From Flintibacter sp. KGMB00164 (GTDB lineage Bacteria > Bacillota > Clostridia > Oscillospirales > Oscillospiraceae), in contig NZ_CP044227.1 of assembly GCF_008727735.1 (NCBI RefSeq), positions 1,364,001-1,428,000 of the forward strand: a DNA stretch of 64,000 nucleotides, read 5' to 3'. Both the position numbers and the translations under genes were made by a program. The notes beneath the pieces were generated by a model. The model worked only from the letters and a program-made list of their open reading frames with translations, was not told the origin of the DNA and did no database searches. Below are positions 28,347 through 34,862 of this stretch, one piece after another (the first letter of the stretch is position 1; every line of letters starts with the position of its first letter).

Positions 28347-30032
28347 TTATTTCCGCTTGGCGCGGTTAATGGCGGACAGAATGGCGCGGAGAGGAGCCAG
28401 GTTAATGTTGTGAGACAGGCCCACGCCCCAATACTCTTTCCCATCCCGCTGGTCCTTCAGCAGGATATAGGCCACGCCCTGGGAGTCGGAACCGTCGGTA
28501 ATGGCGTGGGAGGAGTAGTCCAGGAAGGAGAAGCGGGCCATCTTCTCGCCCTTGATGGCGTTGAAGAAGGCGTCGATGGGGCCGTTGCCCTCGCCGGATA
28601 CCTTAAAGATAGTATCGGTGTGCTGGAGGGTGCCCCAGAAGGTGACGTGGGAGTGACCCTCGTTGTCCACGCTCTCCTGGAAGGCGTGCTTAAGCAGCTT
28701 GTAGGGCTCCTTGACGTCCACATATTCCTGGTGGAAAAGCTCGTTGATGCGCTCGGGAGTGATCTCCTTGCCCACCGCGTCGGTCTCCACCTGAACGATG
28801 TGGCCAAACTCCGGGTGCATGGCCTTGGGCAGATCGAAGCCGAAGTTGTGCTCCATGATATAGGCGGCGCCGCCCTTGCCCGACTGGGAGTTGATGCGGA
28901 TAATGGGCTCGTATTCCCGGCCCACGTCGGCGGGGTCGATGGGCAGATAGGGGATCTCCCAGAAGTCGCTGCCGCTCTCCTTCATATACTGAGTGCCCTT
29001 GTTGATGGCGTCCTGGTGGCTGCCGGAGAAAGCGGTGAACACCAGCTTGCCGGCGTAGGGCTGCCGGTCGCCCACGGGCATCTTGGTGCAGCGCTCGTAC
29101 ATGTCCTTGATCTTGTTGATGTTGGAGAAGTCCAGCTCAGGGTCCACGCCCTGGGTCCACATGTTCATGGCCAGGGTGACCATATCCACGTTGCCGGTGC
29201 GCTCGCCGTTGCCGAAGAGGGTGGCCTCCACCCGCTCGGCACCAGCAAGCAGTCCCATCTCGGCGGTGGCTACGCCGCAGCCGCGGTCATTGTGGGGGTG
29301 CAGGGAGATAATAGCGCAGTCCCGGGAGGGGAGTTTTCTGCAGAAGTACTCCAGCATGTCGGCAAACTGGTTGGGCATGCAGTTCTCCACGGTGGTGGGC
29401 AGGTTCAGGATGACCTTGTTCTCCGGGGTGGCGTGGAGGTGCTCCAGCACGGCCTGGCAGATGTCTACGGCATAGTCCATCTCCGTGCCCATAAAGGACT
29501 CGGGGGAGTACTCAAAGCGCAGGTTCATGCCCTCCTCAATCATGGGCTGGGACATCTCGTAGATGAGGTCGGCCGCGTCGGTAGCGATCTTGGTGATGCC
29601 CTCCATGTCCATGTGGAAGACCACCTTGCGCTGGAGGGTGGAGGTGGAGTTATAGAAGTGGAGAATGACGTTCTTGGCGCCCTTGATGGCCTCAAAGGTC
29701 TTCTTGATGAGGTGCTCCCGGGCCTGTACCAGTACCTGGATGGTCACGTCATCGGGGATGTGACCGCCCTCGATGAGCTCACGGCAGATCTCATATTCCG
29801 TCTCGCTGGCGGAGGGGAAGCCAATCTCAATCTCTTTGACGCCGATATCCAGCAGGGTATGGAAATATTCCAGCTTTTCCTGAAGATTCATGGGGTCCAC
29901 CAGAGCCTGGTTGCCGTCCCGCAGGTCTACCGAGCACCAGACAGGAGCTTTGGTGATGACATGGTCAGGCCAGGTGCGCCCCTCGATCTTCTGGGGCTGG
30001 AAGGGAATGTACTTTGTGTATCCGGGATTCAT
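28347..30032 (-). CDS. leuA: 2-isopropylmalate synthase, long form (LeuA type 2)
   Basis: 561 aa. Joins acetyl-CoA and 2-oxoisovalerate in the first committed step of leucine synthesis. Catalytic TIM-barrel motifs SVDLRDGNQALVDPMN (residues about 34-49) and ISLHPHNDRGCGVATAE; a C-terminal regulatory domain from about 430 that normally mediates leucine feedback inhibition. Monocistronic, with a leucine T-box leader in front and a terminator behind; no other leu or ilv gene is in the window. Start follows GGAAAGGAGAG. Confidence 0.95.
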   Translation of the reverse strand: MNPGYTKYIPFQPQKIEGRTWPDHVITKAPVWCSVDLRDGNQALVDPMNLQEKLEYFHTLLDIGVKEIEIGFPSASETEYEICRELIEGGHIPDDVTIQVLVQAREHLIKKTFEAIKGAKNVILHFYNSTSTLQRKVVFHMDMEGITKIATDAADLIYEMSQPMIEEGMNLRFEYSPESFMGTEMDYAVDICQAVLEHLHATPENKVILNLPTTVENCMPNQFADMLEYFCRKLPSRDCAIISLHPHNDRGCGVATAEMGLLAGAERVEATLFGNGERTGNVDMVTLAMNMWTQGVDPELDFSNINKIKDMYERCTKMPVGDRQPYAGKLVFTAFSGSHQDAINKGTQYMKESGSDFWEIPYLPIDPADVGREYEPIIRINSQSGKGGAAYIMEHNFGFDLPKAMHPEFGHIVQVETDAVGKEITPERINELFHQEYVDVKEPYKLLKHAFQESVDNEGHSHVTFWGTLQHTDTIFKVSGEGNGPIDAFFNAIKGEKMARFSFLDYSSHAITDGSDSQGVAYILLKDQRDGKEYWGVGLSHNINLAPLRAILSAINRAKRK

Positions 30033-30093: not shown

Positions 30094-30361
30094 AAATCAA
30101 AAACGCCCCCGACTTTTTCAAGTCAGGGGCGTTATACTAACGCGGTACCACCCTGGTTCAGCCGCCGGTTGCCCGAACGGCCCTCAAAGCCTCCAACAAG
30201 GCCGCGGCTGATAACGAAGCCAACCGTCCCACCTTACTGTTGTTCAGGCGGACTGCTCAGGGACCAGTTATACACGGAGGGGCCGCACACCGGTTCACAC
30301 CAACCACCGGCTCTCTGAAGAGGGACACGCGCCGTCTTTTTTCCCGTCGTCGCATTTCTTA
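30094..30361 (-). ncRNA. Leucine T-box leader of leuA
   Basis: Minus-strand leader of about 270 nt. T-box core AGGGTGGTACCGCG at 30141-30154 contains TGGT, able to pair with the ACCA end of uncharged tRNA-Leu. Stem I can be folded with AGAGAG and GTGTGAA elements; the lower stem GGGA/TCCC and upper ACGG/CCGT frame an internal loop whose 3' strand reads TATAACTGG, giving specifier CUG (Leu) at 30266-30268 followed by a purine. The terminator AACGCCCC...GGGGCGTT plus T run lies at 30094-30133. Uncharged tRNA-Leu should stabilise the antiterminator. Confidence 0.93.
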
Positions 30362-32882: not shown

Positions 32883-33455
32883 ATGACAAGAGAGCAGGCC
32901 TGGGCATTGCTGACCCAGTATAATAAGGAGCCCTTTCACCTCCGCCACGCCATTACGGTGGAGCATGTGATGGGCTGGTTTGCCCAAAAACTGGGCTACG
33001 GGGAGGAGAAGGAGTTCTGGTCCCAGGTTGGGCTGCTCCACGATCTGGATTTTGAGATGTGGCCGGAGGAGCACTGTGTCAAGTCTCAGGAGCTGATGCG
33101 CGAGGCTGGCGTGGATGAGGCCATCATCCGGGCCACTGCCTGTCACGGTTGGGGCCACTGTGTGGACATCAAGCCGGAGCACGAGATGGAGAAGGTGCTC
33201 TTTGCCTGCGACGAGCTGACCGGACTGATCGGTGCCGCCGCTCTCATGCGTCCCTCCAAGAGTGTGTCCGATATGGAGCTCAAATCCCTGAAAAAGAAGT
33301 TTAAGGATAAGAAGTTTGCCGCCGGCTGCTCTCGGGATGTGATCGCCCAGGGGGCTGAGATGCTGGGCTGGGATCTGGATAAGCTGCTGGATCTTACCTT
33401 GTCCGCCATGCGGGATGAAGAAGAGGCCATCGAGGCCGCTGTGGCTGCCCTTTAA
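32883..33455 (+). CDS. HD-domain phosphohydrolase
   Basis: 190 aa. HD superfamily metal-binding residues: H near residue 20 (PFHLRHAITVEHV), the HD pair in VGLLHDLDFEMWPE near 52, and ATACHGWGHC near 88, followed by a conserved aspartate in FACDELTG. Such proteins hydrolyse nucleotides or phosphomonoesters; the exact substrate is not clear. The start follows GGGAGGAGATCACG. Single gene with its own promoter. Confidence 0.87.
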   Translation: MTREQAWALLTQYNKEPFHLRHAITVEHVMGWFAQKLGYGEEKEFWSQVGLLHDLDFEMWPEEHCVKSQELMREAGVDEAIIRATACHGWGHCVDIKPEHEMEKVLFACDELTGLIGAAALMRPSKSVSDMELKSLKKKFKDKKFAAGCSRDVIAQGAEMLGWDLDKLLDLTLSAMRDEEEAIEAAVAAL

Positions 33456-33475
33456 CAGAGGACAGGGGATTGGGG

Positions 33476-33504
33476 TTGACAACCGCTTTTTCCCATGTTA
33501 CCAT
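33476..33504 (+). promoter_or_regulatory. Promoter of the leader RNA and OadB gene
   Basis: TTGACA, 17-bp spacer, TACCAT; transcription should begin near 33511, right at the structured leader. Confidence 0.75.
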
Positions 33505-33510
33505 GAAACC

Positions 33511-33600
33511 ACAAAGGGGAGTAGTCGGCACAGCGTCTGCTGTGCGGTAGGACCAACAAGCATGGGGGAGTTATCCCTCTGGTTTTGCCTGAAATGACCA
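33511..33600 (+). ncRNA. Structured leader RNA, candidate riboswitch (yybP-ykoY-like)
   Basis: About 90 nt between the promoter and a strong terminator. It has AAAGGGGAGTAG at 33513-33524, the hallmark 5' loop of the yybP-ykoY (Mn2+) riboswitch, then hairpin GCACAGC-GTCT-GCTGTGC (33528-33545) and a second arm AGGACCA/TGGTTTTGCCT (33549-33590) topped by GGGGGAG...CCCTC. The 3' loop reads CCAGACC where yybP-ykoY has CGAGACC, and the CAAAGG of the 5' strand does not find its usual CCTTTG partner. A divergent member or a different aptamer, placed before a cation-pump gene. Confidence 0.55.
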
Positions 33601-33637
33601 GACCTGCGTTCCGATTCGGAACGCAGGTCTTTTTTCT
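33598..33637 (+). terminator. Leader terminator before the OadB gene
   Basis: Perfect stem AGACCTGCGTTCCG / CGGAACGCAGGTCT around ATT, followed by a T run. It stands 80 bp before the OadB start, so it must be bypassed for expression. The 5' arm begins inside the aptamer-like CCAGACC, which would let ligand binding and termination exclude each other. Confidence 0.9.
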
Positions 33638-33716
33638 TACCTGTCTGGGCAAACTCTACCGTGCGGAGCGCTGTCTCCCAAAAATGCCGGCGCAGATCAA
33701 CAAGGGAGGAAATCAC

Positions 33717-34862
33717 ATGGAATTTTTGTGGGAAAGCCTGCTGTCCATCACCTGGCAGCAGCTGGTCATGTATGTTGTGGGCGGATTGCTCATCTGGCTG
33801 GCCATTGAGAAAGGCTTTGAGCCCGCCCTGCTCTTGCCCATGGGGTTTGGCGCTATCCTGGTCAATCTGCCTACTTCGGGCGTGATCAACCAAGTGACCG
33901 CCGGAGTGGGGGAGACCCACGGCATTATCCAGTGGCTCTTTGAGGTTGGCATCAGTGCCAGTGAGGCCATGCCCATCCTGCTGTTCATCGGCATTGGAGC
34001 CATGATCGACTTTGGTCCCCTGCTGGCCAACCCCAAGCTCTTCCTGTGCGGCGCTGCCGCTCAGGCGGGCATTTTCCTCACCATCCTCCTGGCCGCTGCC
34101 CTGGGCTTTGATATGAAGGACGCCGCCTCCATCGGTATCATCGGCGCCGCTGACGGCCCCACCTCCATCCTGGTCTCCCAGGTGCTCCACTCCAACTATG
34201 TGGGAGCCATCGCGGTGGCTGCCTACTCCTATATGGCCTTGGTACCCATCATCCAGCCCTTTGCCATCAAGCTGGTGACCACTAAGAAGGACCGGGCCAT
34301 GCGGATGCCCTATCGGGCCCAGGGCGTGTCCAAGCGGCTGCGCATCCTGTTCCCCATTATCGTCTCGGTGATCGCCGGGCTGGTAGCCCCCTCCTCGGTG
34401 GCTCTGGTGGGCTTTCTCATGTTCGGCAATCTCATCCGGGAGTGCGGAGTGCTCACCACCCTGTCTAAGACCGCCCAGAATGAGCTGGCCAACCTGATTA
34501 CTCTGCTGCTGGGCATCACCATCTCCTTCTCTATGAAGGCGGACCAATTTGTAAAGCCTGAGACGCTGCTCATCATGGTGCTGGGCCTGGTGGCCTTTGT
34601 GCTGGATTCTGTGGTGGGTGTACTGTTTGTGAAGGTGCTCAACCTCTTCACCCCCAAGAACAAGATCAATCCTATGGTGGGTGCGGCGGGCATCTCCGCC
34701 TTCCCCATGTCCTCCCGTGTCATTGAAAAGCTGGGACAGGAGGCCGACCCCCAGAATCATCTGCTGATGCACGCAGTGGCCGCCAACGTATCCGGACAGA
34801 TCGCCTCGGTGGTGGCTGGCGGCGTGATCCTGCAGTACTGTGCCACCCATATGATCGGCTGA
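33717..34862 (+). CDS. Sodium-pumping decarboxylase, beta subunit (OadB/GcdB/MmdB type)
   Basis: 381 aa integral membrane protein with about 9-10 membrane segments. GIIGAADGPTSILVSQ near residue 138 holds the conserved aspartate used for Na+ translocation, and GITISFSMKADQF near 265 and VGAAGISAFPMSSRV near 322 are also family hallmarks. In complete pumps it couples decarboxylation of carboxybiotin to Na+ export. No carboxyltransferase or biotin-carrier gene is adjacent, so the substrate (oxaloacetate, glutaconyl-CoA, methylmalonyl-CoA) cannot be named. Start after AAGGGAGGAAATCAC. Confidence 0.93.
   Translation: MEFLWESLLSITWQQLVMYVVGGLLIWLAIEKGFEPALLLPMGFGAILVNLPTSGVINQVTAGVGETHGIIQWLFEVGISASEAMPILLFIGIGAMIDFGPLLANPKLFLCGAAAQAGIFLTILLAAALGFDMKDAASIGIIGAADGPTSILVSQVLHSNYVGAIAVAAYSYMALVPIIQPFAIKLVTTKKDRAMRMPYRAQGVSKRLRILFPIIVSVIAGLVAPSSVALVGFLMFGNLIRECGVLTTLSKTAQNELANLITLLLGITISFSMKADQFVKPETLLIMVLGLVAFVLDSVVGVLFVKVLNLFTPKNKINPMVGAAGISAFPMSSRVIEKLGQEADPQNHLLMHAVAANVSGQIASVVAGGVILQYCATHMIG

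Follow-up and report, generated by a model that had tools for sequence, protein, structure and literature searches.

The oadB locus and its surroundings

Within the window (the whole stretch of DNA that was analysed, 64 kb), the interval between a gene ending at position 33455 and oadB contains a promoter, an RNA of about 95 nt and then a 14-pair terminator followed by U's. The ATG of oadB at 33717 lies 86 bases 3′ of the terminator stem. The features are listed below with the evidence on which each assignment is based; R2 denotes a covariance model built from mntP leaders only, which is described further below.

33476..33504, plus strand: sigma-70-type promoter (TTGACA 33476-33481, TACCAT 33499-33504, spacer 17; promoter scan)
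33511..33605, plus strand: predicted aptamer, a branched RNA assigned to the yybP-ykoY family (R2 match 33511-33609, covariation, fold)
33512..33517, plus strand: CAAAGG, putative 5′ strand of the switch helix P1.1 (sequence)
33518..33523, plus strand: GGAGUA, 5′ strand of L1 (sequence, R2 match)
33524..33527, plus strand: GUCG, 5′ strand of P1.2, pairing with 33595-33598 (covariation, fold)
33528..33545, plus strand: P2 hairpin GCACAGC-GUCU-GCUGUGC (5 of 7 pairs changed on both sides)
33546..33589, plus strand: P3, L3 and the L3 hairpin (covariation)
33558, plus strand: candidate metal-contact A in CAACA of L3 (equated by us with A48/A41, CAACA versus ACA48UACU)
33595..33598, plus strand: UGAC, 3′ strand of P1.2 (covariation)
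33599, plus strand: variable base N of C[N]AGAC, a C in the window leader
33600..33636, plus strand: intrinsic terminator (14-pair stem 33600-33630, U-tract to 33635; terminator scan, fold)
33704..33709, plus strand: GGGAGG, ribosome-binding site of oadB (sequence)
33717..34862, plus strand: oadB, lone Na+-translocating decarboxylase beta subunit, 381 aa (ORF, TIGR01109, PF03977)

The gene product is OadB, as it scores 403 bits against TIGR01109 (cut-off 190.6) and also matches PF03977. Aligned to 6iva, it keeps the positions counted as D203, N373, G377, S382 and R389, which we take to be conserved residues with roles in the solved beta subunit. A second OadB copy in the genome, 48% identical to the lone one, has 2-hydroxyglutaryl-CoA dehydratase subunits and biotin/gamma proteins as neighbours, a setting that presumably represents the glutaconyl-CoA decarboxylase pathway. 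Near lone-type oadB genes, oadA was found in 1 of 87 loci and a biotin/gamma protein in none of the 87, within a reach of up to 3 kb on each side that was often shorter. The PF02436 match of the genome, an OadA-like protein, lies about 440 kb from the lone oadB (L350:3549-5525, minus strand; about 1837548-1839524 in G000). This protein of 658 aa carries a biotin domain, and the stretch between its carboxylase and biotin domains has no domain match. We also considered that lone OadB needs OadA, but saw no coupling: a PF02436 match is present in 35 of 41 genomes with lone OadB versus 7 of 8 without it (the window genome and 48 of the genus). This co-occurrence does not settle the matter; several of these genomes are incomplete, and PF02436 also matches pyruvate carboxylase. 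Lone OadB may serve a distant alpha subunit or act alone. Elsewhere in the window, a T-box leader (30122-30359, minus strand, 108.3 bits) precedes the ORF 28347-30032, which we assume to be 2-isopropylmalate-synthase-like.

The oadB leader is a structured RNA with covarying helices

A reading of this DNA made from the sequence alone had placed a promoter, a foldable RNA and a terminator ahead of OadB, and motif scans as well as comparison with shuffled sequences confirm this arrangement. The promoter agrees with the consensus at 10 of 12 positions, with one such promoter found versus a mean of 0.1 in shuffles, and its TTGACA box is also visible 5′ of the leader in the oadB loci of relatives that were displayed. 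The region 33500-33640 folds with −62.2 kcal/mol (z −5.6), a value reached by none of 200 shuffles, and the terminator stem alone with −25.9 kcal/mol (z −9.0). Folded in isolation, 33511-33605 adopts a closed, branched fold with a z of −2.3, which 3 of 200 shuffles equal. It comprises P2, P3 together with the L3 hairpin, P1.2 and a closing helix of three pairs that lies one base off the register of the family. The terminator scan also reported three further terminator-like sites inside the L3 hairpin.

In the aptamer, P1.2, P2 and P3 form a three-way junction. P3 pairs 33546-33554 with 33581-33589, the loop L3 reads CAACAAGCAUG, and the L3 hairpin spans 33564-33579. The first conserved box, AAAGGGGAGTAG, is located at 33513-33524, and the second reads CCAGACC at 33598-33604. 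Both strands of L1 are thus present, GGAGUA at 33518-33523 and NAGAC at 33599-33603, and A33520 would correspond, in the presumed register, to the A-minor residue A10 of the crystal structures. CAAAGG at 33512-33517 stands opposite CCTGCG at 33603-33608, and the family register allows pairing of AGG with CCU only, which leaves the window leader (L142) with a P1.1 of three contiguous pairs (33515-33517 with 33603-33605). The 5′ arm of the terminator has AGACCU (33600-33605) in common with L1 and P1.1, AGACC being the foot of the arm. The layout of a transcription-attenuating leader of divergent yybP-ykoY type, the altered second box and the unclosed P1.1 running into the terminator, all pointed out in the sequence-only reading, are indeed seen in the sequence.

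Covariation among homologous oadB leaders, which had been set beforehand as a test of the RNA, is present. In a set of 34 diverse aptamers, of which 33 precede oadB and one precedes mntP and for which we chose the sequences and wrote the structure, 94.1% of the cells are paired, and 146 cells carry a double change compared to 39.2 in shuffles; this number falls to 12-36 when the helix partner is slid. P2, P3 and the L3 hairpin each contain 5-7 pairs with change on both sides (7 of 9 and 5 of 6 pairs in the P3 and L3 helices, helices 4 and 5), and over 31 leaders the positions of the core loops show little or no variation while the helices covary. The leader is a genuine structured RNA.

The leader belongs to the yybP-ykoY family and recurs before oadB

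Two models were used: R1, seeded with the 33 oadB leaders and the one mntP leader, and R2, built from 27 mntP leaders from outside the genus, the members of which were found and aligned with R1. Applied to the window, R2 returned the oadB leader as its sole match (33511-33609, 62.3 bits, E 2.2e-14). The sequence-only reading had recognised a yybP-ykoY signature box, and this match by a model of mntP leaders only bears the family membership out. We therefore consider the assignment of the window leader to the yybP-ykoY (Mn2+ riboswitch) family to be well supported by sequence comparison. The same match speaks decisively against the further suggestion of an unrelated aptamer, or of an RNA that resembles yybP-ykoY by chance, which we regard as extremely improbable. 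What could be said for it is the silence of Rfam. In the leader of the window, no RF00080 match reached the Rfam gathering score, and 33440-33740 searched against all 4227 Rfam families at E up to 5 yielded no usable match in the leader and none to the Na+-I or any other Na+ riboswitch model. RF00080, a model of 177 positions, matched 1 of 14 oadB loci (L018, 38.3 bits, E 7.5e-7, gathering score 45). However, among 11 mntP leaders it reported only two, both under the threshold, nor did it report the mntP leader L036 when this was scanned. As most of the mntP leaders tested are missed too, the silence of RF00080 on the window means little. The Rfam check proposed in the earlier reading is uninformative here, and RF00080 as it stands seems to overlook most such leaders in these bacteria.

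Another Rfam family, RF02617 (SSRC10, ‘Streptococcus sRNA 10’), matched mntP and tetR leaders end to end with 33-41 bits at a gathering score of 56 (L172:149-268, L206:151-263, L173:154-262, L036:1497-1609). Its consensus includes the boxes GGGAGUAG and GCGAGAC. In Streptococcus pyogenes, SSRC10 sits before a ‘putative calcium transporter’ according to an excerpt of PMC3675131. RF02617 may be a leader of the Mn2+ riboswitch type and not an sRNA.

The leader stands before lone-type oadB in many relatives. A search with the OadB protein in 80 related genomes gave 30 best lone-type loci, the one of the window included, and the leader is present in all 30, although in one of them (L023) it is placed further upstream of oadB than in the other 29. 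A second set was drawn from named genomes (Pseudoflavonifractor, Flavonifractor, Lawsonibacter, Flintibacter, Agathobaculum and others), of whose 176 oadB loci the best 80 were kept. R1, which was partly seeded with these loci, found the leader in 60 of 80, and R2 in 60 of the 79 tested. Among the 20 loci without it, one has no upstream DNA (L114), and one, located at the end of a contig, shows no more than a 3′ remnant (L119). In this 80-locus set, the leader was absent from nearly all Lachnospiraceae and Spirochaetales/Spirochaetae records, L115 being a locus that has it. More widely, R1 matched in 131 of 300 genomes of the family, 59 of 64 of the genus and 84 of 391 of the class. Part of these matches was extracted and, together with the loci already collected, amounted to 249 distinct leaders, which precede mntP, genes for P-type ATPases and Na+/Ca2+-type exchangers, tetR regulators and oadB. 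The genes were labelled by tblastn with six reference proteins that had themselves been named by Pfam.

The window genome holds two more such leaders, one before mntP (L172) and one before tetR (L173). The latter (L173:153-238; 1539792-1539877 in G000) precedes a regulator of the TetR family according to Pfam, and across the family 10 matches, including the one in this genome, precede tetR, which is an unusual target for a metal riboswitch.

Leaders of oadB differ from those of mntP in three features

We tallied the variable base N of C[N]AGAC by gene class in 246 of the 249 matches, dropping three without a readable NAGAC. Some gene labels were corrected by hand, namely L148, L150 and L265 from P-type ATPase to mntP (all have mntP first), L314 from oadB to unknown, and L054, L055 and L144 to oadB; membership of the genus was likewise assigned by us. 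Leaders of mntP have G in 83, A in 2 and C in 1 case (n = 86; 83 of 87 with G if L314 is counted as mntP), leaders of oadB have C in 56, A in 21 and G in 7, and leaders of P-type ATPases have G in 28, C in 12 and A in 7 (n = 47). U occurs in no gene class among the 246 readable matches. Fisher values calculated from these counts take no account of kinship.

Inside the genus the separation is complete: N is C or A and P1.1 has at most 4 pairs in 49 of 49 oadB leaders, whereas N is G in 24 of 24 mntP leaders, the P1.1 of which has at least 5 pairs. Outside the genus, non-G bases occur in 28 of 35 oadB versus 3 of 62 mntP leaders, and P1.1 does not exceed 4 pairs in 19 of 35 versus 9 of 62. In mntP leaders P1.1 covaries. 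L3 differs as well, as CAACA is followed by CAUG in 41 and by CUG in 8 of the 49 oadB leaders of the genus, compared to CUG in all 23 mntP leaders of the genus with a loop of the CAACA type; L3 of the 24th, L347, reads CAATAGACTGG. Leaders of P-type ATPases are mixed, with C or A at N in 19 of 47 and CAUG in 15 of the 44 with that loop type; in 40 of 47, P1.1 has 5 pairs or more. L261 carries two tandem leader matches (1501-1593 and 1645-1733) upstream of a P-type ATPase gene, separated by about 50 bases, the first with C and the second with G at the variable base.

A quickly built OadB tree calls for no fewer than 11 changes of the variable base and has two groups, one of 42 and one of 10 leaders, in which G is absent. 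For 44 P-type ATPases, a similarly quick tree implies a minimum of 11 switches between G and non-G, some of them between near neighbours. The variable base also takes part in the terminator. A terminator hairpin satisfying our scan begins in L1 in 78 of 84 oadB and 64 of 83 mntP leaders, counted with the gene labels used in that scan. The terminator base opposite N shifts along with it: among the 63 mntP leaders with G that were scored, it is C or U in 61, and the 7 oadB leaders with G have C there in 6 cases. Opposite A it is U in 17 of 19 oadB leaders, and of 52 leaders with C, 43 have U there, which leaves the C unpaired, and 7 have G. A non-G base in the oadB leader and G in the mntP leader L172 coexist in the window genome. 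The short P1.1 and the non-G base are, to judge from this distribution, heritable traits of oadB leaders. Together with the altered L3 they set these leaders apart, on sequence grounds, as a new branch within the Mn2+ riboswitch family.

A probable Mn2+-responsive ON switch of oadB

The comparison shows a branched aptamer with the core of the family (GGAGUA, CAACA, NAGAC) and a terminator whose 5′ arm consists of the 3′ strands of L1 and P1.1. With a probability of roughly 0.65, we propose that the leader is an oadB-specific variant of the yybP-ykoY Mn2+ transcriptional riboswitch that is turned ON by its ligand through competition with the terminator, with Mn2+ as the most probable ligand. 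As long as no ligand is bound, the legs of the aptamer would remain undocked, the terminator would form and transcription would stop before oadB. A divalent cation, most likely Mn2+, would dock L1 on L3 and thereby hold AGACCU in L1 and the three-pair P1.1, so that the terminator would lose its lowest pairs, a gap would open before the U-tract and oadB would be transcribed. We can only infer this ON mechanism, because P1.1, the published antiterminator, has just three pairs in the window leader; an ON switch is still expected despite a P1.1 of AGG and CCU only, because the 5′ arm of the terminator starts inside L1. The short P1.1 and the non-G base would then tune the set point and not the ligand, and OadB would be a further cation transporter of the regulon beside mntP, the P-type ATPases and the Na+/Ca2+-type exchangers. 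In the distant genome of L314, a leader with C at the variable base (CCAGAC, 149-251) stands before an mntP-like gene that has an oadB-like gene behind it, an order that fits the placement of OadB in a metal regulon, although we know of no Mn2+ role of OadB.

Unlikely in our view is that the oadB leaders are a variant class that uses the yybP-ykoY scaffold to sense another cation, be it Na+, Ca2+, Mg2+ or a different metal ion. The change of ligand would then have left its traces in the non-G base, the short P1.1 and the CAUG loop. The split at the variable base (non-G in 49 of 49 oadB versus 0 of 24 mntP leaders of the genus, 28 of 35 versus 3 of 62 outside) would agree with this, as would its persistence, since mntP stays G and oadB non-G, with both occurring in one genome, and the two groups on the OadB tree lack G even though A to G is a transition. 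The gene itself encodes a subunit of a Na+ pump; Na+-I riboswitches sometimes control oxaloacetate decarboxylase (PMC9337991, from an excerpt), and yybP variants that respond to other divalent ions are anticipated in an excerpt of a review (PMC7266159). Against it stand the behaviour and the position of the variable base. By the register we infer, this base corresponds to position 91 opposite A13, presumably in the sheared pair of a sarcin-ricin-like motif, and would therefore lie outside the published metal contacts described in the excerpts available. Because it also has a role in the terminator and varies among P-type ATPase leaders, with the at least 11 exchanges on the tree of 44 proteins, it is weak evidence for a new ligand, and the idea that the C of CCAGACC marks one is weakened accordingly. 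The difference in L3 between oadB and mntP leaders, CAUG in 41 of 49 versus CUG, does count against the Mn2+ reading; the L3 loops of Xanthomonas and Lactococcus also differ, however, and both riboswitches sense Mn2+ according to the excerpted reports. In favour of Mn2+, A33558, the base equated with the metal contact, is kept, and no Na+ riboswitch model matched. Overlap with the terminator is normal in the yybP-ykoY family, and its presence here does not speak for a new ligand. Of the earlier proposal of a variant with another ligand, perhaps Na+, the variant stands, while the features cited for the ligand (a base that would not be a contact, is exchanged among G, C and A and is shared with the terminator) do not support that part. 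A more specific form of the proposal, a separate class that senses a cation other than Mn2+, Na+ in the first place, combined with stand-alone OadB as a cation exporter without an alpha subunit, seems quite improbable to us.

We attach little probability to a decayed riboswitch, in which a working terminator would have outlived its antiterminator P1.1 and leave a fixed low readthrough. The P1.1 of three pairs and the very stable terminator (−25.9 kcal/mol) would suit such a remnant, but decay would let the core loops drift, whereas these are near-invariant over the 31 leaders while the helices covary, and the foot of the terminator stays in L1. The preferred reading of an Mn2+ riboswitch variant ties a widespread subfamily of stand-alone OadB proteins to a cation riboswitch regulon and makes the role of OadB testable.

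Comparison with known Mn2+ and Na+ riboswitches

Published Mn2+ riboswitches are described, in the excerpts considered here, as four-way junctions in which Mn2+ is contacted by phosphates and by N7 of an L3 adenosine (A48/A41; PMC6754395, PMC9190785). L1 contains G9-G93 and G8-A94 with A10 extruded (same sources), and Mn2+-stabilised P1.1 blocks the terminator, which otherwise contains the 3′ strand of P1.1 (PMC11087558, PMC9190785, PMC6754395). Compared to the RF00080 leaders of Lactococcus lactis yoaB and Xanthomonas oryzae yebN, the window leader is alike in L1 (GGAGUA and NAGAC), in P1.2, P2, P3 and an L3 with the equated metal-contacting A, and in a P1.1 3′ strand that is held in common with an intrinsic terminator. 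It differs in the base before AGAC, which in oadB leaders is C or A where G is customary, in its P1.1 of three pairs, in CAUG after CAACA and in its position before a lone oadB. Its junction has three arms and not four, as in the oadB model in general, but this is equally true of the mntP leaders of these bacteria.

The Na+-I (DUF1646) riboswitch is occasionally associated with an oxaloacetate decarboxylase gene (PMC9337991, in part), whereas the window leader, searched at E up to 5, is without an Rfam riboswitch match. The literature searched, as judged mostly from titles and listings, contains no report of a yybP-ykoY leader associated with oadB, while the general idea of yybP variants for other ions is already in print (PMC7266159, in part). 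Within the window genome, the leaders before mntP (L172) and tetR (L173) agree with the window leader in core and terminator overlap and differ by G at the variable base, a P1.1 of five pairs and UACUGG in L3. Among P-type ATPase leaders in the same class of bacteria, some resemble oadB leaders in the C or A base and CAUG, mostly with a longer P1.1. Leaders of mntP, P-type ATPases and oadB, some of them within one genome, offer a natural series for studying how this scaffold tunes affinity or changes its ion.
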